DNA from: Hyphomicrobiales bacterium
Lineage (GTDB): Bacteria; Pseudomonadota; Alphaproteobacteria; Rhizobiales; Xanthobacteraceae
Direction of reading: 5' to 3'
NCBI GenBank assembly: GCA_017305715.1
Contig: JAFKKG010000031.1
Location: forward strand, 61,991-125,990
DNA: 64,000 nt
The notes beneath the pieces are model-generated. The model saw only the letters and a program-made list of their open reading frames with translations, was not told the DNA's origin and did no database searches. The stretch's first letter is position 1, and each line of letters opens with the position of its first letter. This document shows positions 1,945 through 11,427 of this stretch, piece after piece. A program made the position numbers and the translations under genes.

Positions 1945-2132
1945 TCCTGCTCACTCACTGACTGGATATCTGCAAACGTGATTTAAGCGTCAATCACGCG
2001 AAAGGGAAGTGAGTAGCTGCCCGCAAGCGCGGCGTCTGCAAACAGTCCCGGTAAAGGCGCGGGGTCGCGTGGCCGTCCTGGAGGACGACGACATCGCTCG
2101 GGGCAGGGCGGGTTCAGATGCCGCCCTGCTTA

Positions 2133-2162
2133 TTGAACACACGGACACGCTCTGTGTATACT
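2133..2162 (+). promoter_or_regulatory. Predicted sigma-70 promoter of the GntR regulator
   Basis: A TTGAAC -35 (2133-2138) and a TATACT -10 (2157-2162) are separated by 18 bp. The -10 hexamer lies inside the palindromic site at 2156-2168, so a protein bound there would block RNA polymerase. The start codon follows 68 bp downstream. Confidence 0.5.
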
Positions 2163-2168
2163 GCATAC
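2156..2168 (+). promoter_or_regulatory. Candidate GntR operator, copy 1
   Basis: GTATACTGCATAC has GTAT/ATAC arms and overlaps the predicted -10 box of the regulator gene. It matches the consensus GYATRCTGYATNC shared with the two sites in front of the transporter operon (3275-3287, 3296-3308). Autoregulation is inferred from position. Confidence 0.55.
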
Positions 2169-2229
2169 GAGGTGCAGTTTTCGTAGAATGCGTGCAATTT
2201 TCAATATTGCCTCGTCGAAGTAGGTATAA

Positions 2230-3024
2230 ATGACCAAGAAACCTGCAGCTGGGCGTGCATTCCCGGAGCGTGCGCTGCCTGTTCCGAAGACTAACGCGCG
2301 CAGCGCGGCACAACCCGACGTGGAGGTTGCATCAGTCGGCATCATGCGCGCCGAGCGAGTCTCGGACCAGGTGTATCGCAGACTTCGGCAATCGATCCTG
2401 CATGGTGAAATCGCCCCAGGCGCCCGCCTTCGCGAAACGGAAATAGCAGAAAACCTGGCGGTCAGCCGAACGCCGGTGCGGGAGGCCATTTCGCGCCTGA
2501 TCGGAGATCGCCTTGTCCGCGAGCTTCCAGCCGGTGGTGTCGAAGTTGTGGACACGCGTGCCGAAATGGAAGAGATCTACGCTATTCGCGAGGCGTTGGA
2601 AGTTTGTGCCGTCGGCCTTGCCGCGTCGAGGATCGATGGCGCGCAACTCGAAGAGCTGGAGCGCTTGCTGGCAACGGCGGAGGCAACGAGCTATCTTCAG
2701 CACGGCCGCCGGGCAGACTTGAACGAAGCCTTTCACTTGACCATCGCAGATGCCGCTCGGTCGCCGCGCTTGGCTGCTTTGATCGCGGAGTTCAGGGAGT
2801 TTTTCCTCAACTCGTCCTGGCTCAGTCAACAGACCGAGGACGACGCGCGCAAGGCGCTTGGAGATCACCGCGCCATCATTGAGGCCCTGCGCGACGGCGA
2901 TCGCGAAGCCGCCGAAACGTCACTAAGGAAGCACCTCGGGCGCGCATACCGCGGCATGGGCCTGGAGCGCAACGCTGCACCATCGCCGAAGAAGCCCGCG
3001 GCGAAGCGCTCGAAGAAAAAATAG
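2230..3024 (+). CDS. GntR family (FadR/FCD subfamily) transcriptional regulator
   Basis: This 264-residue regulator has a winged helix-turn-helix at about 42-105 (AENLAVSRTPVREAISRL is the recognition segment) and an FCD ligand domain at about 115-240. The residues Asp163, His169, His213 and His235 match the metal-binding pattern of metal-dependent FCD domains, so a carboxylate effector is likely. The first 38 residues are low complexity and the last 17 are a Pro/Lys-rich tail, both unusual for the family. The start is the first ATG of the frame; an internal Met39 just before the HTH is an alternative but has no clear ribosome site. It is the obvious regulator of the downstream transport and catabolic genes. 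Confidence 0.9.
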   Translation: MTKKPAAGRAFPERALPVPKTNARSAAQPDVEVASVGIMRAERVSDQVYRRLRQSILHGEIAPGARLRETEIAENLAVSRTPVREAISRLIGDRLVRELPAGGVEVVDTRAEMEEIYAIREALEVCAVGLAASRIDGAQLEELERLLATAEATSYLQHGRRADLNEAFHLTIADAARSPRLAALIAEFREFFLNSSWLSQQTEDDARKALGDHRAIIEALRDGDREAAETSLRKHLGRAYRGMGLERNAAPSPKKPAAKRSKKK

Positions 3025-3261
3025 CCTCCGGCCCGCCTGTTTCCAGGGGTTGGGGCGCGTCTGCGGCCTCGCAGCCCGCCGTTTGCGACAGCCCGCGACA
3101 TCGAGCTGGCGCACATTTAATCCACCTCCGCCCGATGTTGACGCAGGCCAAGCGGCCGAACCTGAAGACGTGACGTCTTTTGGCGCGTTACGGGCCGCGA
3201 AACAGGCTCGATCCGCCAATGCGCGGCCGTCCGAAGCGGCAAAGCGCCGCGGGCTCCCGGC

Positions 3262-3277
3262 TGGCACGGTGGTTGCA
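3262..3277 (+). promoter_or_regulatory. Sigma-54 (RpoN) promoter of the ABC transporter operon
   Basis: TGGCACG (3262-3268), four bases, then TTGCA (3273-3277) is a full match to the -24/-12 consensus TGGCACG-N4-TTGCW, with GG and GC exactly 12 bp apart. The predicted transcript starts near 3288, leaving about 43 nt before the ATG at 3331. Sigma-54 promoters need an enhancer-binding activator such as NtrC. I found no clear NtrC site upstream, but nitrogen control is the usual reason for such a promoter in front of an amino-acid-type transporter. Confidence 0.75.
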
Positions 3278-3287
3278 TACTGTATCC
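3275..3287 (+). promoter_or_regulatory. Candidate GntR operator, copy 2, overlapping the sigma-54 -12 element
   Basis: GCATACTGTATCC contains the perfect palindrome ATACTGTAT and shares 10 of 13 bases with the site in the regulator's own promoter. It begins on the GC of the -12 element, so occupancy would exclude sigma-54 polymerase. Confidence 0.55.
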
Positions 3288-3295
3288 CGGACATT

Positions 3296-3308
3296 GCATG
3301 CTGCATGC
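3296..3308 (+). promoter_or_regulatory. Candidate GntR operator, copy 3
   Basis: GCATGCTGCATGC is the core of a perfect 15-bp palindrome (3295-3309) and fits the consensus GYATRCTGYATNC. Its centre is 21 bp, two helical turns, from the centre of copy 2, so two dimers would lie on the same face of the DNA. It falls just after the predicted transcription start. Confidence 0.5.
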
Positions 3309-3330
3309 AGAGCGGCAGGAACCTGATCCG

Positions 3331-3996
3331 ATGGATTACACTTGGCACTTCCAGATCGTCTGGGATTACCGGATGGTCTTCGTGCGCGGCGCCATCATGA
3401 CCGCCCAGATTACGTTCTGGGCGACGTTGATTGGATTGGTGTTCGGCCTTCCGCTTGGCCTGATGCGTCGAAGTCGGATACTCCTGCTCCGCGCCCCCGC
3501 CGCGACGATCATCGAGCTGTTCCGGTCCACGCCGGCGCTCGTGCAACTGGTGTGGATCTACTACGCATTGCCGATCCTTACCGGCCTGCAAATGAGCAAC
3601 ACTGTCTCGGTGTCGATCGGCCTCGGATTGCATGCGGCCGCCTACTTCGCCGAGATCTTCCGGGCCGGCATCAACTCCATAAGCCGGGGGCAGTGGGATG
3701 CCGCGCTTGCAACCGGCATGACCTACACCCAGGCCATGCGGCGGATCATTCTCCCGCAGGCCGTCCGGCGCATGGTGCCGCCGTTCATCAACGAGTTTGC
3801 CTCGCTCATCAAGCTGACGACGCTCGGTTCGGCACTGGCAGTCTATGAACTGCTGCATGAAGCGAACAACCTCATCAACAATACGTATCGCCCACTGGAG
3901 ATCTACACCGTCCTGGCGCTGGCCTTCGCGGCCCTGATCTTTCCGATCATTTACGCGTCGCAGCTGCTCGAGCAGCGTTGGCGGGTGCGCCAATGA
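3331..3996 (+). CDS. Amino-acid-type ABC transporter permease (HisMQ/GlnP family)
   Basis: A 221-residue inner-membrane permease with about five membrane segments and the cytoplasmic coupling (EAA) loop [20 protein letters not shown] at about 120-140. The start chosen is the ATG at 3331, after AGGA at 3317-3320. It is the only permease in the cluster, so the transporter should use a homodimer, whereas many polar amino-acid systems have a HisM/HisQ pair. Its stop overlaps the start of the ATPase gene (ATGA). Together with the ATPase and the binding protein at 6123 it forms an importer for a polar, probably amino-acid-like, nitrogen compound. Confidence 0.9.
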
Positions 3997-4805
3997 AACC
4001 CGTCATGATCAGCGCGCGCAATGTCCAGAAGTCCTTCGGTGCGACCCAGGTTCTGAAGGGGATCGACCTGGACGTCGTCAAGGGCGAAGTGTTGGCCATC
4101 ATCGGTCCGAGCGGTTCAGGCAAGAGCACTTTCCTCAGATGCATGAACTTCCTCGAAGAATACGATGGCGGCGAGATCCGGTTCGACGATCGACTGGTTG
4201 GCTATCGAAAGAATACCAACGGCAAGCTGGTCAAGGACAGCGCAGTCCACGTTGCGGCAATCCGGGCGCGCATGGGCATGGTATTCCAGAGCTTCAACCT
4301 GTTTCCGCACATGAGCGTCCTCGACAACGTGATCGAGGGGCCGATGATCGTCCAGCGTCGCAAGCGGGAAGACGCAGTCAGGCAGGCCAAGGGTCTTCTC
4401 GATCGTGTCGGGCTGTCGACAAAGATCGATGCCTTTCCCGAGACGCTGTCCGGCGGGCAACAGCAACGCGCCGCCATCGCGCGCGCTCTCGCCATGAATC
4501 CCGAGGTGATGCTGTTCGACGAGCCGACCTCGGCACTGGACCCTGAACTCGTCGGCGAAGTGCTCGACGTGATGAGATCGCTGGCGAGCGATGGCATGAC
4601 CATGATTGTCGTGACACACGAGATGGCGTTCGCGCGCGACGTCGCGGACCGCGTGATGATGATGGATCATGGCAAGAGCGTGGAGATCGGTCCGCCGCGG
4701 GACATCTTCACGAACCCGTCCCACGCGCGCACGGAGGAGTTTTTGCAGCGCGTTTTGCAGCGCGCGGCACCGGCACCTCTGAAAAATCCGGAAGGAGTCC
4801 TGTGA
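3993..4805 (+). CDS. Amino-acid-type ABC transporter ATP-binding protein (GlnQ/HisP family)
   Basis: This 270-residue ATPase powers the importer. Walker A is GPSGSGKST (about 38-46), the signature is LSGGQQQR, Walker B is [12 protein letters not shown], and the switch histidine is in VVTHE. An insertion of about 15 residues after the Walker A region (around [14 protein letters not shown]) matches the longer HisP/ArtP-like members. The ATG overlaps the permease stop, so the two are translationally coupled. The 140 bp after it hold no recognisable gene or strong terminator, so the monooxygenase gene may be co-transcribed. Confidence 0.92.
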
Positions 4806-4945
4806 TGAGCGTCGCATCGCGACGCCCGGTCTGTCCTCGGCCGACGAGGCCGGCGGTGAACGGTGAACCTCATGAATGAATCTTCCCGTTCTCGCTAAGC
4901 CTGTTCGTTGCGCCCTCCACCAACGTTGATTGTAAGGAAATTTGG

Positions 4946-6031
4946 ATGCGAGTTGGAATCTGTGGTGGTGGCATAGGTGGGCTTTCCGCCGCTATCGGTC
5001 TGGTATCACTCGGCTTTGATGTCGAAGTGTTCGAGCAGGCGCCGCTCCTGAGGGCGACCGGCGCGGGCCTAAATCTCTGGCCAAACGCCGGACGTGCGCT
5101 CTACGGATTGGGTCTGCGGCAGCCGTACGACGCCATATCGGTCAAGCTTGACCGGTATCTCGGCTATGATCCGCACGGAGAATTGTTGTTCAAGAAGGAT
5201 GCGAGCGACTGGCCGACCAAATACGGCGCTCCCTCTGTCGGGGTCTATCGACTTGCGCTGAGTACCATGCTGGCCGAGGCCTACGGCCTGGAAAAAATCA
5301 AGTTCGGCTACGCGGTTACGTCGGTCGAGGATAGGGGCGATAGCGCCGTCTGCCATTTCGCAAATGGCGAGACTTACGAAGGCGATCTCGTCATCGGGGC
5401 GGATGGAATTCACTCGGTCATCCGCGAGCAGTTGATCGGCGGCGTCAAGTTCCGGCCGAATGATCATCACGCATTCCGTTTTCGGTCCGTCATCGATATC
5501 GATAAGGTCGATGTGGATCCTGCCGCGCAGACGGGGATCTACACGACGGGCGGCTGGCTGGCGGTCATCCCGATTGGCAACGGCAAGGCGTACTGGTTCG
5601 GCTCGGTGCGCGGTGCGGCGAATGTGGACGAGTTCATCGCCTATTTCAGTTCCTGGACCCATACACACGTCCCCACCACGATCGGTACGACGCCACGGGA
5701 CTCGATCGTCGCGAGCCCTTTGTTTGACGTCGATGGGACGCCGTACAAATGGACGCATGGCCGCGTCACGCTGCTTGGAGATGCTGCGCATCCTATGATG
5801 CCCGATCTTGCGCAAGGCGCGAGCCAGACGCTGATCGACGCTCTCGCTCTGCGCGATGCCTTCGCAAAGACAAAGGACATCGATCAGGCGCTGCTCGACT
5901 ACGAAAGCCTTCGGCGCCCGGCCGCGAACTACATCGTCAAACGTTCGCAGCAAGGAAGCTTTCTTGGTCGAAACAATGTCGATCCGATCGCGATCCGGTA
6001 CGAGAAGGAAGTCGAAGCGCAGCTCGCATGA
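4946..6031 (+). CDS. FAD-dependent monooxygenase (UbiH/salicylate hydroxylase/urate hydroxylase fold)
   Basis: A 361-residue single-component flavoprotein hydroxylase of the p-hydroxybenzoate hydroxylase group. The dinucleotide-binding GGGIGG is at 7-12, the DG motif GADGIHSVIR at 151-160, and the FAD-binding GD motif GDAAHPMMPDLAQGASQ at about 278-294. Such enzymes use NAD(P)H and oxygen to hydroxylate an aromatic or heteroaromatic ring. TAAGGAAAT precedes the ATG at a normal distance. It sits between the ATPase and binding-protein genes of one importer, so it probably acts on the imported compound or its first product. The exact substrate cannot be read from the sequence. Confidence 0.88.
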   Translation: MRVGICGGGIGGLSAAIGLVSLGFDVEVFEQAPLLRATGAGLNLWPNAGRALYGLGLRQPYDAISVKLDRYLGYDPHGELLFKKDASDWPTKYGAPSVGVYRLALSTMLAEAYGLEKIKFGYAVTSVEDRGDSAVCHFANGETYEGDLVIGADGIHSVIREQLIGGVKFRPNDHHAFRFRSVIDIDKVDVDPAAQTGIYTTGGWLAVIPIGNGKAYWFGSVRGAANVDEFIAYFSSWTHTHVPTTIGTTPRDSIVASPLFDVDGTPYKWTHGRVTLLGDAAHPMMPDLAQGASQTLIDALALRDAFAKTKDIDQALLDYESLRRPAANYIVKRSQQGSFLGRNNVDPIAIRYEKEVEAQLA

Positions 6032-6122
6032 ACCTGGCGCGGCGCGCGTCGTATTCGGCATTCATAAACTAGCGAAATTGGCTCACTCCATGGACTTCAG
6101 CACTTCAGGAAAGGACTTCACG

Positions 6123-6989
6123 ATGAACAGCATCACGCGATACTCGCTCCGCCTTGGCAGCACATTGGCCGCGCTTGCCTTGCTGGTCGGCGTTCAGCCG
6201 GCTGCCTCGCAAGTGATGGATCGCATTCTCAAGGAGAAGACGATCAAGGTCGGTTACATTCCGTCTCCCCCCGGCACGATCAAGGATCCCGCGACGGGCG
6301 AAGTGAAGGGCTACTACGTCGATGGTCTGCGATACATCTTCAAGGCGATCGGCGTCGAACCGGTGCTCGTGGAGACCACCTGGACCAATTATGCTGCCGG
6401 ACTGCAGTCGGGCCAGTTTGATCTGTCCATTGCCGGAACGTTTGCGACCGTTCAGCGCGCCGCTGCCGTCGAGTTCACCAAGCCCATCCACTATCTCGGA
6501 TACAGCGCCATCGTGAAGAAGGGCGACGAGCGCTTCAAGACTCTGGCTGACCTCAACAAGAAGGACATCAAGATCGCGGTCGTGCAGGGCGGCGCCGCGC
6601 ATGAGTATGTGAAAGAGAGCTTTCCGCTGGCCAATGTTGTGGCCCTTGGGACGTCGAACCTGACGGCTCCCTTTGTCGAGGTCTCCTCCGGGCGGGCCGA
6701 TGTCGGCATCGAGGATGCCTGGCAAGCGCGTCGTTATGCGTCGCAGCAGCCCGGCGTGACAGACCTGTTCCAGAGCAATCCCTACAACCTGCTGCCCATC
6801 GCATGGAGCGTGAAGCGCGGCAATCAGGAATTGCTCAATTTCCTGAACAGGTCGATCGACTTCATGCTGCTGACCGGGCGCTGGGAGCGCATGGCCAATC
6901 TCTACGGAATGACCGGTCGCTTCTACGACGCCCCCGACCTGAAGCCGTTCGGCGCTGTCGTTGAAGCGACGGATGAAAGCAAGAAGTAA
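6123..6989 (+). CDS. ABC transporter substrate-binding protein, amino-acid family 3
   Basis: A 288-residue periplasmic binding protein. Residues 1-29 are a signal peptide (basic start, LAALALLVGVQPAASQ) and the mature protein begins near VMDRILKEKTIKVGY. The IKVGY...GYYVDGLRYIF pattern and the two-lobe layout are those of the family-3 solute-binding proteins. The start at 6123 follows AGGAAAGGA (6107-6115) at 7 nt. It completes the importer encoded at 3331-4805 although a monooxygenase gene lies between them. A Gly/Pro-rich strand after the first beta strand (PSPPGTIKD) replaces the usual aromatic ligand segment, which suggests an unusual ligand. Confidence 0.9.
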   Translation: MNSITRYSLRLGSTLAALALLVGVQPAASQVMDRILKEKTIKVGYIPSPPGTIKDPATGEVKGYYVDGLRYIFKAIGVEPVLVETTWTNYAAGLQSGQFDLSIAGTFATVQRAAAVEFTKPIHYLGYSAIVKKGDERFKTLADLNKKDIKIAVVQGGAAHEYVKESFPLANVVALGTSNLTAPFVEVSSGRADVGIEDAWQARRYASQQPGVTDLFQSNPYNLLPIAWSVKRGNQELLNFLNRSIDFMLLTGRWERMANLYGMTGRFYDAPDLKPFGAVVEATDESKK

Positions 6990-7085
6990 CCCGATCGCCC
7001 GCACCAATGCCGCGCCTGGAGCCGAGATTTCACGAACTCGGTGCCCAGGCGTCGGCGACGCGAGGTCTTAGACCGGAAAGCAACG

Positions 7086-8348
7086 ATGAACAAAGCAAAG
7101 CAACAGCTACTGGACCGCATCGAAGCGGATCGAGAGTTGCTCATCACCTATCTGCGCGACTTTATCCGTCTCCCGAGTCCGAATCCGGCGGGAGACACAC
7201 GCAGTTCGGCCCAGCATGTTCGCGCCCTCTTCGACGCGCGCGGCATTCCGTATCGGATCATCGCGCCGGAGGAGACGATGCCGAACATCGTAGCCACATT
7301 CGATTGCGGTCAGGCGGGCCGGCACCTCGCGCTGAACGGCCATATCGATGTGTTTCCTGCCGGCGATGGCGCCGGCTGGACCAGGGATCCCTGGGGCGCC
7401 GAGTTCGTTGATGGGCGGATCTACGGCCGCGGCGCCTGCGACATGAAAAGCGGAACGACGGCATCGATCTTCGCCTTTCTTTATCTGCACGATATCCGAG
7501 AGCAGCTCCACGGTCGCCTGACCCTGTCCGTCGTATCGGACGAAGAGACGTTTGGCCCCTGGGGCGCCCGCTATCTGTTCGAGCATCATCCCGAAATCAT
7601 CGGCGATTGCTGCCTCAATGCGGAGCCGACCGGGCGGAATACGTTTCGATTTGGCGAGAAGGGGCCGCTCTGGTTGCGCTTCACGGTGCGCACGCATGGC
7701 GCGCATGGGGCATATGTTCACCGGAGCGCGAGCGCGACATCCATCGCATCGAAGGTCATCGGCGAACTGGAGTGCCTGGCCGAACTGCCGCCGGCCGAGC
7801 TGGGAAATCTGACAGCCGTCTTCGATGCGGCGGCGCCGACGGTCGATCAGGAATGGGGGCTTGGTGCCGCGCGCAATCTTCGTCGCATCACCGTCAATCC
7901 CGGCCTGATGCGCGGCGGCGTCAAGGTCAACATGGTGGCGGCGGAATGCGTGTTCGAAGTCGATATTCGTCTTCCGAATGGGTTCGACGATACCGACGTC
8001 AGACGGGCGGTCGATGCCATCGTCGCGCGCCATCCGGAAGTCAGCTACGAGCAGATCCTCTACAATCCTCCGAACTGGACGTCGCCGGACACCGAGATGG
8101 CCGGCCTGGTGCGCGCCAATGCCAAGGCGGTGTCGGGCGTGGAGCCGATGCCGGTCGTGAGCCTCGGATGCACCGATGCGCGCCTGTGGCGGTACAAGGA
8201 TGTGCCGGCGATCGTCTTCGGCCCATCGCCGATCGAAATGGGCGGTGTTGACGAGTATGTCGAGGTCGAGGAATTCCTCGATGTCGTTCGGGTCCACACG
8301 CTGTCGGCTTACGATTATCTGAGCCGTCCGTCTTCTCAGCCGCAGTAA
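7086..8348 (+). CDS. M20 family metallo-amidohydrolase (ArgE/DapE-like), copy 1
   Basis: A 420-residue deacylase-like enzyme. The expected ligands His86 and Asp88 (LNGHIDVFP), the bridging Asp119 (GRGACDMKSG), general base Glu153 with ligand Glu154 (SDEETFG), and Glu180 (NAEPTG) are all present. The C-terminal ligand is not: the position of the conserved histidine (GP-x5-H-x-x-N-E in DapE) is Gly386 (GPSPIEMGGVDE). The second copy at 9444 has the same change, so this is a subfamily trait and not damage. The enzyme probably hydrolyses an N-acyl or amide bond in the cluster's pathway. A dimerisation lid domain occupies about 190-300. Confidence 0.88.
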   Translation: MNKAKQQLLDRIEADRELLITYLRDFIRLPSPNPAGDTRSSAQHVRALFDARGIPYRIIAPEETMPNIVATFDCGQAGRHLALNGHIDVFPAGDGAGWTRDPWGAEFVDGRIYGRGACDMKSGTTASIFAFLYLHDIREQLHGRLTLSVVSDEETFGPWGARYLFEHHPEIIGDCCLNAEPTGRNTFRFGEKGPLWLRFTVRTHGAHGAYVHRSASATSIASKVIGELECLAELPPAELGNLTAVFDAAAPTVDQEWGLGAARNLRRITVNPGLMRGGVKVNMVAAECVFEVDIRLPNGFDDTDVRRAVDAIVARHPEVSYEQILYNPPNWTSPDTEMAGLVRANAKAVSGVEPMPVVSLGCTDARLWRYKDVPAIVFGPSPIEMGGVDEYVEVEEFLDVVRVHTLSAYDYLSRPSSQPQ

Positions 8349-8371
8349 CTCATATTTCGAGAGGAAAGCCG

Positions 8372-9289
8372 ATGATCAAGAACCCTCCGCCATGGCCGAA
8401 CGGGGCACGATGCGCCGTCAGCATCACTTTCGACGAAGATGCCGACAGCATTCTTCATCTCGCCCATCACGCCAGTGCGCATAACCGGGTTGCTGCCATC
8501 TCGATGTTGCGTTACGGACCGGAGATCGGGACGCCGCGGATCGTCGAGATGTATCGCCGGTTCGGCATCCGCCAAACCTTCTTCGTGCCCGCTTGGTGTA
8601 TCGAGCGCTATCCGCAAACCATTGAAACGATCCTCCGTGACGGGCACGAGATCGCGCATCACGGATATCTGCACGAGCATCCGAATGGCCTGCCCGAGGA
8701 AGAGCAGCTCTACTGGCTGCGCCGGGCCAGCGAAGTCATCAAACGCGTGACAGGAAAACATCCGCGCGGGATTCGTGCTCCGACTTACAAATTCTCTGCC
8801 GCAATGCTGGATCATCTGGTGGCGGATGGCTTCGACTACGACGCCTCGCTCATGGGTGATGAAATACCGTATTTGCTGACCAACGGGCGCGGCAGCGTGG
8901 TCGAGCTTCCGACCCACTACGCGGTCGACGACTGGCCGCATTACATGGCCTCGCGCGACTTCAGCTATATCATGCCGGTGAAAGCCCCGTCGCAGGCGAT
9001 GGAGTGCTTTCGCGCCGAATTCGATGCCGCCTGGGAATATGGTGCGCTCTTCGTGCCGGTCTGGCATCCGTTTCTTTCGGGCCGCCTGGCGCGCTGCCAC
9101 GCCATCGCGGAGTTCATCGAATACATGCTCAAGAAAGGCAATGTCTGGTTTGCGCCGATGGAAGAGATCGCGGCGCACGTCCGGCAACTCGTCGCGACCA
9201 AGGCCTGGGAGCCGCGTGTCGACCATCTGCCGCACTATTCCGGTCCGATACCTGAACTGGGCGACGTCGAACCGAGTCTCGCGCACTAG
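8372..9289 (+). CDS. Polysaccharide deacetylase family protein (PuuE allantoinase-like)
   Basis: A 305-residue NodB-fold hydrolase with no signal peptide, so cytoplasmic. The metal/catalytic Asp cluster is TFDEDAD (about 19-25), followed by the histidine motif HEIAHHGYLHEHP and a later ARG-containing motif (RGIRAPTYKFS). Cytoplasmic members of this group with the intro MIKNPPPWPNGAR and a WHPFLSGR segment cleave cyclic amides such as allantoin and not glycans. It lies 23 bp after the first M20 gene with GAGAGGAAAG as ribosome site, so the two are one unit. In this cluster a ring-opening or amide-hydrolysis step is more plausible than glycan deacetylation. Confidence 0.85.
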   Translation: MIKNPPPWPNGARCAVSITFDEDADSILHLAHHASAHNRVAAISMLRYGPEIGTPRIVEMYRRFGIRQTFFVPAWCIERYPQTIETILRDGHEIAHHGYLHEHPNGLPEEEQLYWLRRASEVIKRVTGKHPRGIRAPTYKFSAAMLDHLVADGFDYDASLMGDEIPYLLTNGRGSVVELPTHYAVDDWPHYMASRDFSYIMPVKAPSQAMECFRAEFDAAWEYGALFVPVWHPFLSGRLARCHAIAEFIEYMLKKGNVWFAPMEEIAAHVRQLVATKAWEPRVDHLPHYSGPIPELGDVEPSLAH

Positions 9290-9298
9290 AGCCGTTGC

Positions 9299-9391
9299 CG
9301 TTCCGATTGAATTGGAACGGGGGCTCCAGACTATCTATTTGACGCGTTTTCTTGATGTGAACCGGTCCCCACTTCGCCGGAAAATGCTCTA
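9299..9391. repeat. Dispersed intergenic repeat (Bradyrhizobium type)
   Basis: The block starts with GTTCC/GGAAC arms around GATTGAATT, continues through a TTGACGCGTTTTCTTGA segment and ends in AAAATGCTCTAG. I recognise this pattern from many Bradyrhizobium intergenic regions. It splits the second M20 gene from the deacetylase gene and may carry its own promoter-like TTGACG. Confidence 0.5.
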
Positions 9392-9443
9392 GCGTCCAGC
9401 TTGAGCGAAATCGGAAGAAGACTCATGAAGAAGGAAGCCACGT

Positions 9444-10718
9444 GTGACCTCGATTGCTGAGATCCGACAGACGCTCACGAGCTGGATTGACGTTGACCGT
9501 GACAGCATTCTGCAATTCATGCAGACGCTTGTCCGGGCGCGCTCGCCGAATCCGCCCGGTGACACACGCGAGGTCATGACTCTGGTGCGGTCCTATCTCG
9601 ATGGCCTTGGCATCGACTACGCGATGTTCAACCGCGATCAGACGATGCCGAATCTGGTTGCCGCCCGGACATTCGGTCCAGGCAACAAGCACCTCGTGCT
9701 CAACGGCCATATCGACGTGTTTCCGGTCGAGACGTCCGAAGGTTGGTCGCAGGATCCCTGGGATGGGCGTGTGGAAGGGACGATCTGGGGGCGCGGGAGC
9801 GCAGACATGAAAGTCGGCACCACGGCGTCGATCATGAGCTATGTTTATCTGACGCGTCTTGCAGCGCATTTGGCCGGCAAGCTCACGTTGACGGTCGTTT
9901 CGGAGGAGGAAAGCTTCGGTCCGAATGGGGCTCGTCATCTCTTCGATGCATGTCCCGAGCTGATCCTGGGGACGGCGCTCCTGAACGGCGAGCCGAGCGG
10001 CGCCAGCGTTGTCCGGTTTGGCGAAAAGGGAGCGCTCTGGCTGCGGATGACTGTGCAGACCCCGGGCGGACATGGCGCTTATCCGCACCTCAGCCCGAAT
10101 GCGATCGAGAAGGCGTTCGAACTGATTGGCGACCTGAAGAGACTCTCGGATGTGGAATTCGAGGAGCCTGAGGTGGTCGTCTCGGCACTCGAACGATCGC
10201 GTGAGGAATACGATCGGGCCTATGGCGACGGTGCAAGCGACTTGGCACGAAAGGTGACGATGAACATTGGCACCATTGCGGGGGGATCGCGCGTCAACAT
10301 GATCGCGTCTCGCTGCTCGTTCGATGTCGATATCCGCTTGCCGAATGGCGTGGATGCCGATGACCTCCTCGCGAAAATCGAGGGGTTACGCGATCGGCAT
10401 CAGTTCACCTATGAGGTGATCCTGCTCAACCGGCCCAATTGGACCGATCCGGACTACGAACTGGCGCAGATCGTCACGGAAACCGCCGCGGAGATCACAA
10501 ATATCAGGCCCGTGCCGGCGGTCAGCCTGGGCAATACGGATGCGAGACTCTGGCGATATCGAAAGATCCCATCGGTCGTCTACGGGCCCTCGCCGAAGGG
10601 AATGGGGAGCACGAACGAACACGTCCCGGTGGAGGAGGCGCTGAACGTTGTTCGTTGCCATGTTCTCTCTGCAGCAGCCTATCTCTTCCGTCAAAACGCG
10701 GAGAGATCAAGCGGATGA
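9444..10718 (+). CDS. M20 family metallo-amidohydrolase (ArgE/DapE-like), copy 2
   Basis: A 424-residue paralogue of the enzyme at 7086, similar along its whole length. Ligands His89, Asp91 (LNGHIDVFP), Asp121 (GRGSADMK), Glu155/Glu156 (SEEESFG) and Glu183 (NGEPSG) are present. The C-terminal histidine position is again glycine (Gly388 in GPSPKGMGSTNE). The start is a GTG at 9444 after GAAGGAAG; no ATG in the frame lies close by. The pair may handle successive or alternative acyl substrates in the same route, or form a heterodimer. Confidence 0.87.
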   Translation: MTSIAEIRQTLTSWIDVDRDSILQFMQTLVRARSPNPPGDTREVMTLVRSYLDGLGIDYAMFNRDQTMPNLVAARTFGPGNKHLVLNGHIDVFPVETSEGWSQDPWDGRVEGTIWGRGSADMKVGTTASIMSYVYLTRLAAHLAGKLTLTVVSEEESFGPNGARHLFDACPELILGTALLNGEPSGASVVRFGEKGALWLRMTVQTPGGHGAYPHLSPNAIEKAFELIGDLKRLSDVEFEEPEVVVSALERSREEYDRAYGDGASDLARKVTMNIGTIAGGSRVNMIASRCSFDVDIRLPNGVDADDLLAKIEGLRDRHQFTYEVILLNRPNWTDPDYELAQIVTETAAEITNIRPVPAVSLGNTDARLWRYRKIPSVVYGPSPKGMGSTNEHVPVEEALNVVRCHVLSAAAYLFRQNAERSSG

Positions 10719-10827
10719 AGCGTCAGGATCATGTCCAATTGAGCGTCTGTCCGGGGCGACGCGTCTCAGTCCACCAAAAGAGAACTGAAGGCCGGAGCTC
10801 AGCGCACAGGATTGGCGGGGACGTGAG

Positions 10828-11427
10828 ATGAAGATACACTCGGAAAATCTTACCAGGTCCGAAGCCTATAAGCTGCTGACGGGCGTCGTGGTGCCGCGGC
10901 CGATCGCCTGGATCTCGACGATATCAAACCAGGGACGGTCAAACGTCGCACCATTCAGCTGCTTTACCTTCGTATCCGACGATCCACCCATGATCGGTTT
11001 TAATTGTGGTCTTCGCGACGGCCGGCGCAAGCACACCGCAGCGAATATTCTCGAAACCGGTGAATTCGTGGTCAATATCGTCGACGAGCCACTGCTGGAT
11101 CCGATGCATCGATCGGCGATAGACTATCCCGATGGGATCGACGAAATAGAGCTGCTCGATCTGCCGAGCGTTGGAAGTGACCTGATTGCGCCGCGCCGCA
11201 TCGCGTCGTCGCCCATCAGTCTGGAATGCGTGATGGACCGGACTGTCATCTTCGGTCGATCGGGCGCCGAGTTTATTGTTGGCGAGATCAAGCTGTTTCA
11301 CGTGCGCGACGACCTGCTCAGGAACGGCAAGATAGACTCTGAACAGCTCCGGCCGCTCGCGCGTCTTGCGGGCTCTGTCTATGGAACGCTCGGCGACATC
11401 ATCCGCATCGATCGATCGGAGGTCTGA
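10828..11427 (+). CDS. Flavin reductase family (FMN-binding) protein
   Basis: A 199-residue split-barrel FMN protein. The opening (LTGVVVPRPIAWISTISNQG), the FSCFTFVSDDPPMIGF strand and NFVVNIVDE-like segment are those of the flavin reductase/DIM6 group. Such proteins supply reduced flavin to a two-component monooxygenase or act as oxygen-independent flavoenzymes. The FAD monooxygenase of this cluster should not need a reductase, so a partner oxygenase may be elsewhere, for example an LLM enzyme such as 13463. GGGGACGTGAG precedes the ATG. It is the last gene of the accessory cluster. Confidence 0.85.
   Translation: MKIHSENLTRSEAYKLLTGVVVPRPIAWISTISNQGRSNVAPFSCFTFVSDDPPMIGFNCGLRDGRRKHTAANILETGEFVVNIVDEPLLDPMHRSAIDYPDGIDEIELLDLPSVGSDLIAPRRIASSPISLECVMDRTVIFGRSGAEFIVGEIKLFHVRDDLLRNGKIDSEQLRPLARLAGSVYGTLGDIIRIDRSEV

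Follow-up and report, generated by a model that had tools for sequence, protein, structure and literature searches.

A predicted sigma-54 promoter with candidate FCD-type GntR operators ahead of a transporter and amidohydrolase operon

Gene content of the locus

The window (the whole 64-kb stretch of DNA analysed, G000:C18:61991-125990, where G000 is the window's own genome of 7.45 Mb) encodes a GntR/FCD regulator, followed after a 306-bp gap by an operon running from an ABC transporter permease through a flavin reductase, all on the + strand. The genes and their best supported family assignments are as follows.

2230 to 3024, + strand: GntR/FCD regulator gene, gntR (Pfam GntR 8.6e-18 and FCD 1.3e-23, both above cut-off)
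3331 to 3996, + strand: ABC transporter permease of the polar amino acid type, first gene of the operon (Pfam BPD_transp_1, 4.4e-21)
3993 to 4805, + strand: ABC transporter ATPase (Pfam ABC_tran, 6.6e-33)
4946 to 6031, + strand: FAD monooxygenase (Pfam FAD_binding_3; best NCBIfam model HpxO, far below cut-off)
6123 to 6989, + strand: solute-binding protein, family 3 (Pfam SBP_bac_3, 5.9e-23)
7086 to 8348, + strand: M20 amidohydrolase (Pfam Peptidase_M20, 2.8e-27; ArgE/DapE family deacylase above cut-off)
8372 to 9289, + strand: polysaccharide deacetylase or PuuE-like amidohydrolase (Pfam, 2.2e-18; NCBIfam PuuE below cut-off)
9444 to 10718, + strand: second M20 amidohydrolase (Pfam, 6.6e-23)
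10828 to 11427, + strand: flavin reductase-like protein (Pfam, 2.7e-20)

The permease likely begins at the ATG at 3331, where the sequence ATGGAYTAY is common to five operons, and the ATG given for it in the list of open reading frames, at 3298, falls within one of the candidate operators described below (operator 2). As the operon combines amidohydrolases with an HpxO-like monooxygenase, its content suggests that the cell takes up and hydrolyses a nitrogen compound, perhaps a purine derivative or an acyl or carbamoyl amino acid. Plasmid pLA6_003 (L017) carries a related GntR gene at the head of a cluster whose annotation lists monooxygenases, a RutF flavin reductase and a carboxypeptidase G2 precursor, an enzyme set that resembles that of the window operon.

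Promoters of the operon and of gntR

The regulatory features predicted upstream of gntR and in the gap between gntR and the permease are listed here, with positions relative to the predicted transcription start (+1) in brackets.

2133 to 2162, + strand: sigma-70-type promoter of gntR, TTGAAC-18-TATACT (9/12, two overlapping rows)
2155 to 2168, + strand: candidate operator at gntR, TGTATACTGCATAC, overlapping the -10 (one of three founding 14-mer sites)
3165 to 3179, no strand: 15-bp perfect palindrome AAGACGTGACGTCTT, then TT (centre about -116)
3262 to 3277, + strand: predicted sigma-54 promoter, -24 TGGCACG and -12 TTGCA (exact consensus match)
3274 to 3287, + strand: candidate operator 1, TGCATACTGTATCC, on the -12 (about -14 to -1; motif match)
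3295 to 3309, + strand: candidate operator 2, TGCATGCTGCATGCA, a perfect odd-centred palindrome (about +8 to +22; motif match)

Sigma-54 promoters follow the consensus TGGCAC-N5-TTGC with fixed spacing and are mostly described as activator-controlled. The sequence TGGCACGGTGGTTGCA at 3262-3277 on the + strand is the sole exact match to TGGCACGNNNNTTGCW in the 64-kb window. When up to two mismatches were allowed, the window held 9 matches against a mean of 11.8 in shuffles, no excess over chance, so that the exact match alone is informative. A first-order Markov model predicts 0.022 exact matches for 64 kb and 2.6 for the whole genome, where 8 were found against 1 for the reversed pattern; of the other seven, read by eye, three lie shortly upstream of an open frame and one within a coding frame. 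The score at 3262-3277 was reached by none of 1000 dinucleotide shuffles of the 300 bp upstream, and rpoN is encoded in the genome (PF04552, 3.5e-70). The GC of the -12 element occupies 3275-3276 and is overlapped by operator 1, and the spacing would put +1 at about 3288, 12 nt after the -12. A scan of 2090-3340 found no sigma-70-type promoter at the permease, the sole location of that type being the gntR promoter (mean of shuffles 0.3).

Candidate operators and their assignment to the adjacent regulator

The repeats TTGCATACTGTAT (3273) and TTGCATGCTGCAT (3294) are spaced 21 bp apart. A preliminary description of this DNA had placed two operator-like repeats on the promoter, the first on the -12 GC and the second 21 bp on, and this arrangement is borne out from 3274 and 3295, TGCATGCTGCATGC at 3295 standing 21 bp from TGCATACTGTATCC at 3274. 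Both predicted operators overlap the region bound by sigma-54 RNA polymerase. The 14-mer motif TGYATRCTGYATNC was drawn from the sites at 2155, 3274 and 3295, which match it by construction; the 7.45-Mb genome holds four exact matches, one beyond the founding three, with about 1.1 expected by chance. This motif can be read as a tandem of the 7-bp unit TGYATRC or as an odd-centred palindrome. Operator 2 has no mismatch to the palindrome motif TGYATGCNGCATRCA and was equalled by 0 of 1000 shuffles, a figure that is descriptive as the motif was defined after the sites had been seen, the sigma-54 consensus being prior knowledge.

The operator at 2155 covers the -10 of gntR, as expected for autorepression. 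Its core GTATAC fits the GT-N2/3-AC type, and operator 2 and the operators of the relatives carry G/C variants. A relative of the GntR protein (44-50% identical) adjoins the operon in four other genomes, and the segment VSRTPVREAISRLIGD is identical in the regulators of all five operons. Sites of the TGCATGCA type occur upstream of gntR in two of these genomes (G1010 and G1050), and a TGYATRC half-site upstream of gntR was not found in the other two (G384 and G1075). On plasmid pLA6_003 the sequence TGCATTCTGCATACA begins 41 bp before the gene for a 42%-identical GntR protein, and the stretch holds no sigma-54 match at one mismatch or fewer. Taken at sequence level, the assignment of the operators to the adjacent GntR/FCD protein is supported, and repression is the likely effect. 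Pfam reports no ligand domain besides FCD in this protein, which places it outside the HutC subfamily.

An exact operator motif is also present at G000:C1:363293-363306 (L031), ahead of a 515-aa frame for which Pfam gave no match. This site lies 2.3 kb from a different FCD-type GntR gene, so the motif class may be common to such regulators.

Conservation of the footprint in related operons

Four operons with an adjacent gntR were compared with that of the window: G384 belongs to another family of the same order, and G1075, G1010 and G1050 to genus g419 of the window's family. G384 was found through the GntR protein (2 of 397 genomes, the window's own included) and the three g419 genomes through the solute-binding protein (4 of 167, again including the window's own); these searches sample their groups, and other carriers may exist. 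The permeases are 81-89% identical, and in the relatives the adjoining gntR is divergent.

The promoters, anchored on TGG, read TGGCACGGTGGTTGCA in the window, TGGCATGCCTCGTGCA in G384, TGGCATGTGCCTTGCT in G1075, TGGCACATGCCTTGCT in G1010 and TGGCACGCCTCTTGCG in G1050, and all keep the -24/-12 spacing with one mismatch to the sigma-54 consensus in each g419 genome and two in G384. The sigma-54 promoter that had been proposed ahead of the transporter operon is exact at 3262-3277 and has a counterpart in all four of the other operons that adjoin a gntR. It is followed, upstream of the equivalent start codon, by the palindrome TGCATGC[T/A]GCATGCA, of which G384 has the variant GGCATCCTGCATGCAGAATGCC; mismatches to TGCATGC-N-GCATGCA number two in G384 and none in G1075, G1010 and G1050. 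Per 1000 shuffles, the sigma-54 site was equalled by 0 in the window, 22 in G384, 0 in G1075, 8 in G1010 and 5 in G1050, and the palindrome by 0, 1, 0, 0 and 0, respectively. Each of the three g419 loci (16.5-17 kb) contains a single sigma-54 match with no more than one mismatch and a single perfect palindrome, and the two lie together at this promoter. At one mismatch or fewer neither was found in the G384 locus, where the sigma-54 site is weak and the -24 box, GGCATGCC, itself resembles the operator core. A five-way alignment of the gap shows little in common besides promoter and palindrome. An ungapped comparison of the 305 bp of the window with G384 alone scored 15, which the best of 60 shuffles also reached, so the comparison is weak by itself and becomes convincing once the g419 genomes are added. 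As these three genomes belong to one genus, the five operons represent three lineages.

The position of the palindrome shifts slightly. Counted from the first base of the -24 box, operator 2 begins at 26 nt in G1050, 29 nt in G1075 and G1010 and 33 nt in the window and G384, which sets the conserved operator at about +1 to +22 of the predicted starts. Since this spacing varies by a few bp, steric blocking would fit better than a fixed protein contact. Operator 1 is present in the window only, its first heptad TGCATAC being shared with G384; at its position the g419 genomes have TTGCTTAGC, TTGCTTTGC and TTGCGACC, which are not operators. The earlier proposal of GntR repression at the -12 holds in so far as the operators are assigned to the GntR/FCD protein with repression as the likely effect, but the -12 operator is not the conserved part, as the g419 genomes have no operator after TTGC and carry their palindromes at or after +1.

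Five further permeases (63-76% identical, from G939, G858, G750, G684 and G365) stand in other gene contexts, some of them not as first gene, and have no GntR hit in the stretch fetched. No sigma-54 match with fewer than four mismatches was found in the 400 bp upstream of them (best match four or five mismatches), and both the promoter site and the palindrome are absent. The L013 stretch has a sigma-54 match with one mismatch at a distance of about 5.8 kb from the permease.

Distribution in the genus and other sites in the genome

The permease was found at E <= 1e-80 in none of 241 other genomes of the window's genus (own genome only, 1/242). The GntR protein had no match at E <= 1e-60 in 145 genomes of the genus, a limit too strict for this count to serve as evidence, as the relatives score about 1e-47 to 1e-53; a scan of named genomes returned four distant GntR proteins. 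The operon (2230-11427) has a patchy distribution, with further occurrences in a second genus of its family and in a second family, and has perhaps been moved horizontally.

A broad class of such promoters in the genus was also considered. The pattern TGGCACNNNNNTTGCN{0,14}TGYATNC was met at 18 places in 13 of 242 genomes, four of them tandem copies in G002 and two in the window's own genome. The reversed control gave 8, which speaks against a broad class, and this idea was rejected.

Some further sites in the window's own genome were recorded in their own right. At G000:C36:178632-178665 (L024, L029), an exact sigma-54 site directly precedes TGTATGCGGTATGC, which is operator-like with one mismatch, and the gene downstream encodes a glutathione S-transferase (Pfam); this sequence has no counterpart among the other places that the search of 242 genomes listed. 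At G000:C28:299310-299405 (L030), an exact sigma-54 site with the operator-like TGCATGCTGCATTT (one mismatch) 67 bp upstream precedes a flavin monooxygenase-like gene (Pfam FMO-like, 1.6e-22). A pair of exact sigma-54 sites, divergent and about 160 bp from each other, occupies G000:C31:17759-17952 (L023), between an ABC ATPase gene (read by eye) and an NMT1-type solute-binding-protein gene (Pfam 3e-35); at 294 bp upstream of one member of the pair there is an NtrC-like site with one mismatch.

Activator and nitrogen control

Sigma-54 polymerase requires an enhancer-binding protein, and the NtrC site consensus is TGCACY-N5-RGTGCA. The GAFTGA-type signature of enhancer-binding proteins is absent from the window, and a search for an activator gene by GAFTGA and two other signatures gave no match in the stretches of the four relatives (L016, L059, L060 and L061). 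Upstream in the window the best match to the NtrC consensus has 4 mismatches of 12, though degenerate sites may exist, and no good match to the IHF pattern was found in the window. Control by nitrogen limitation, as had been suggested for this promoter, is a conjecture drawn from the class of sigma factor; no good NtrC site or activator gene was found in the window.

The three g419 genomes (L059, L060 and L061) share a block, CTGATTAAC...TGCNAGNNNATTGNGCA, at about 105-150 bp before the predicted +1, a distance usual for an activator site, and the G1050 copy includes an NtrC-like dyad (3 mismatches of 12). We regard the block as a lead towards an activator site. It was not found in the window or in G384; in a comparison with the window one half gave a weak reverse-strand match (equalled by 7 of 300 shuffles) and the other half gave no notable match (equalled by 40 of 300). 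The palindrome AAGACGTGACGTCTT at 3165-3179 is a possible activator site or weak terminator stem, and its best match in the upstream regions of the four relatives has 5-7 mismatches of 15.

Proposed regulation and alternative readings

We consider it probable, with fair assurance, that the operon is expressed from the sigma-54 promoter at 3262-3277 and that the FCD-type GntR protein encoded next to it acts as its repressor. The promoter, operators and conservation come from sequence, and from them we infer binding, repression, ligand, activator and start site. The operon from 3331 would be transcribed off this promoter with +1 at about 3288, and GntR would bind the conserved palindrome at about +8 to +22 and, in the window, also the second site 21 bp upstream over the -12. 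With the dimers in place, sigma-54 RNA polymerase would be unable to settle on the promoter, or else to open and clear it, until a ligand derived from the substrate and held in the FCD domain releases the dimers. Transcription would then require that the repressor be lost and that an enhancer-binding protein provide ATP-dependent activation, so that the operon probably needs both the activating signal and the right substrate. GntR would also repress its own sigma-70 promoter through the operator on the -10.

As to the way in which the repressor acts, our estimate falls a little short of even for a narrower version of this proposal, in which the promoter is of the sigma-54 type but GntR works chiefly from the downstream operator, as a roadblock or a block to clearance, and the -12 site is a weak auxiliary or an accident. 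Operator 2 is found in all five operons with a spacing that varies by a few bp and operator 1 is absent in g419, and lambda-CI sites positioned beyond the start of the inducible promoters pBAD and pRHAB acted as elongation blockers in a synthetic circuit (PMC4490610). On the other side, a single downstream lambda-CI site gave incomplete repression in that circuit, whose promoters are not of the sigma-54 type (PMC4490610), and operator 1 has a full motif fit, stands 21 bp from operator 2 and has its first heptad in G384. A more specific form of the repression proposed here, in which a family of FCD-type GntR proteins holds sigma-54 promoters through the start region, with a two-dimer clamp in the window that also blocks closed-complex formation, can be put forward tentatively, and we hold it to be somewhat doubtful.

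That the operators are bound by a regulator other than the adjacent GntR appears improbable: an exact motif does lie at G000:C1:363293, 2.3 kb from another FCD-type GntR gene, but the motif travels with this GntR, at both window promoters, at gntR in two of four relatives and at the plasmid homologue. Also improbable is a sigma-70 promoter driving the operon, with the -24/-12 match a by-product of TGCAT-rich operators, for although operator 1 includes the -12 TTGCA, the G384 -24 box resembles the operator core and TGCAT sequences raise the chance of TTGCW matches, TGGCAY-N5-TTGC is retained in the g419 promoters, where no operator lies on it, and a sigma-70-type site was found at gntR and none at the permease.

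Comparison with known systems

The preliminary description knew of no described case of this geometry, and for the general design this does not hold. In Pseudomonas, the 51-bp footprint of HutC, a repressor of the GntR family, overlaps the sigma-54 site of hutU, and the substrate derivative urocanate lifts the repression (PMC12977541); NtrC and CbrB activate the hutU promoter (PMC8871633). With HutC at hutU published, the regulatory logic is known already. The predicted arrangement resembles it in that sites for a GntR-family repressor overlap the sigma-54 promoter of a catabolic operon, and differs in that HutC belongs to the HutC subfamily with the operator TGTA-N2-TACA, whereas the window regulator is of the FCD type with a conserved operator at about +1 to +22.

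Operator rules for the GntR family give GT-N2-AC for HpxS, HypR, MdcY and others, with extra boxes at 7-12 nt (PMC4494728). The core TGTATAC, which has a neighbouring box at a distance of 7 nt, is like these operators of the FadR subfamily (FCD). The conserved TGCATGC-N-GCATGCA is unlike that class, having G/C at the GT/AC positions and lying on a sigma-54 promoter. No FCD-type repressor on a sigma-54 promoter was recognised in a literature search from whose reach subscription journals were mostly excluded. The Pseudomonas gbdR promoter with BetI is also among the closest known systems, BetI being, unlike GntR, a TetR-family protein.

The new aspects may be the FCD-type repressor in a sigma-54 role and its placement over the transcription start. 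Here a sigma-54 promoter apparently has a local repressor layered on it, one of the large FCD class, and the layering is conserved in three genera. As the operator shifts in position and one lineage seems to have an extra site on the -12, the set could serve to separate blocks to closed-complex formation, opening and clearance. If true, FCD repression at the start region would amount to a natural two-key switch and, to our knowledge, the first FCD case, beside the HutC subfamily at hutU.
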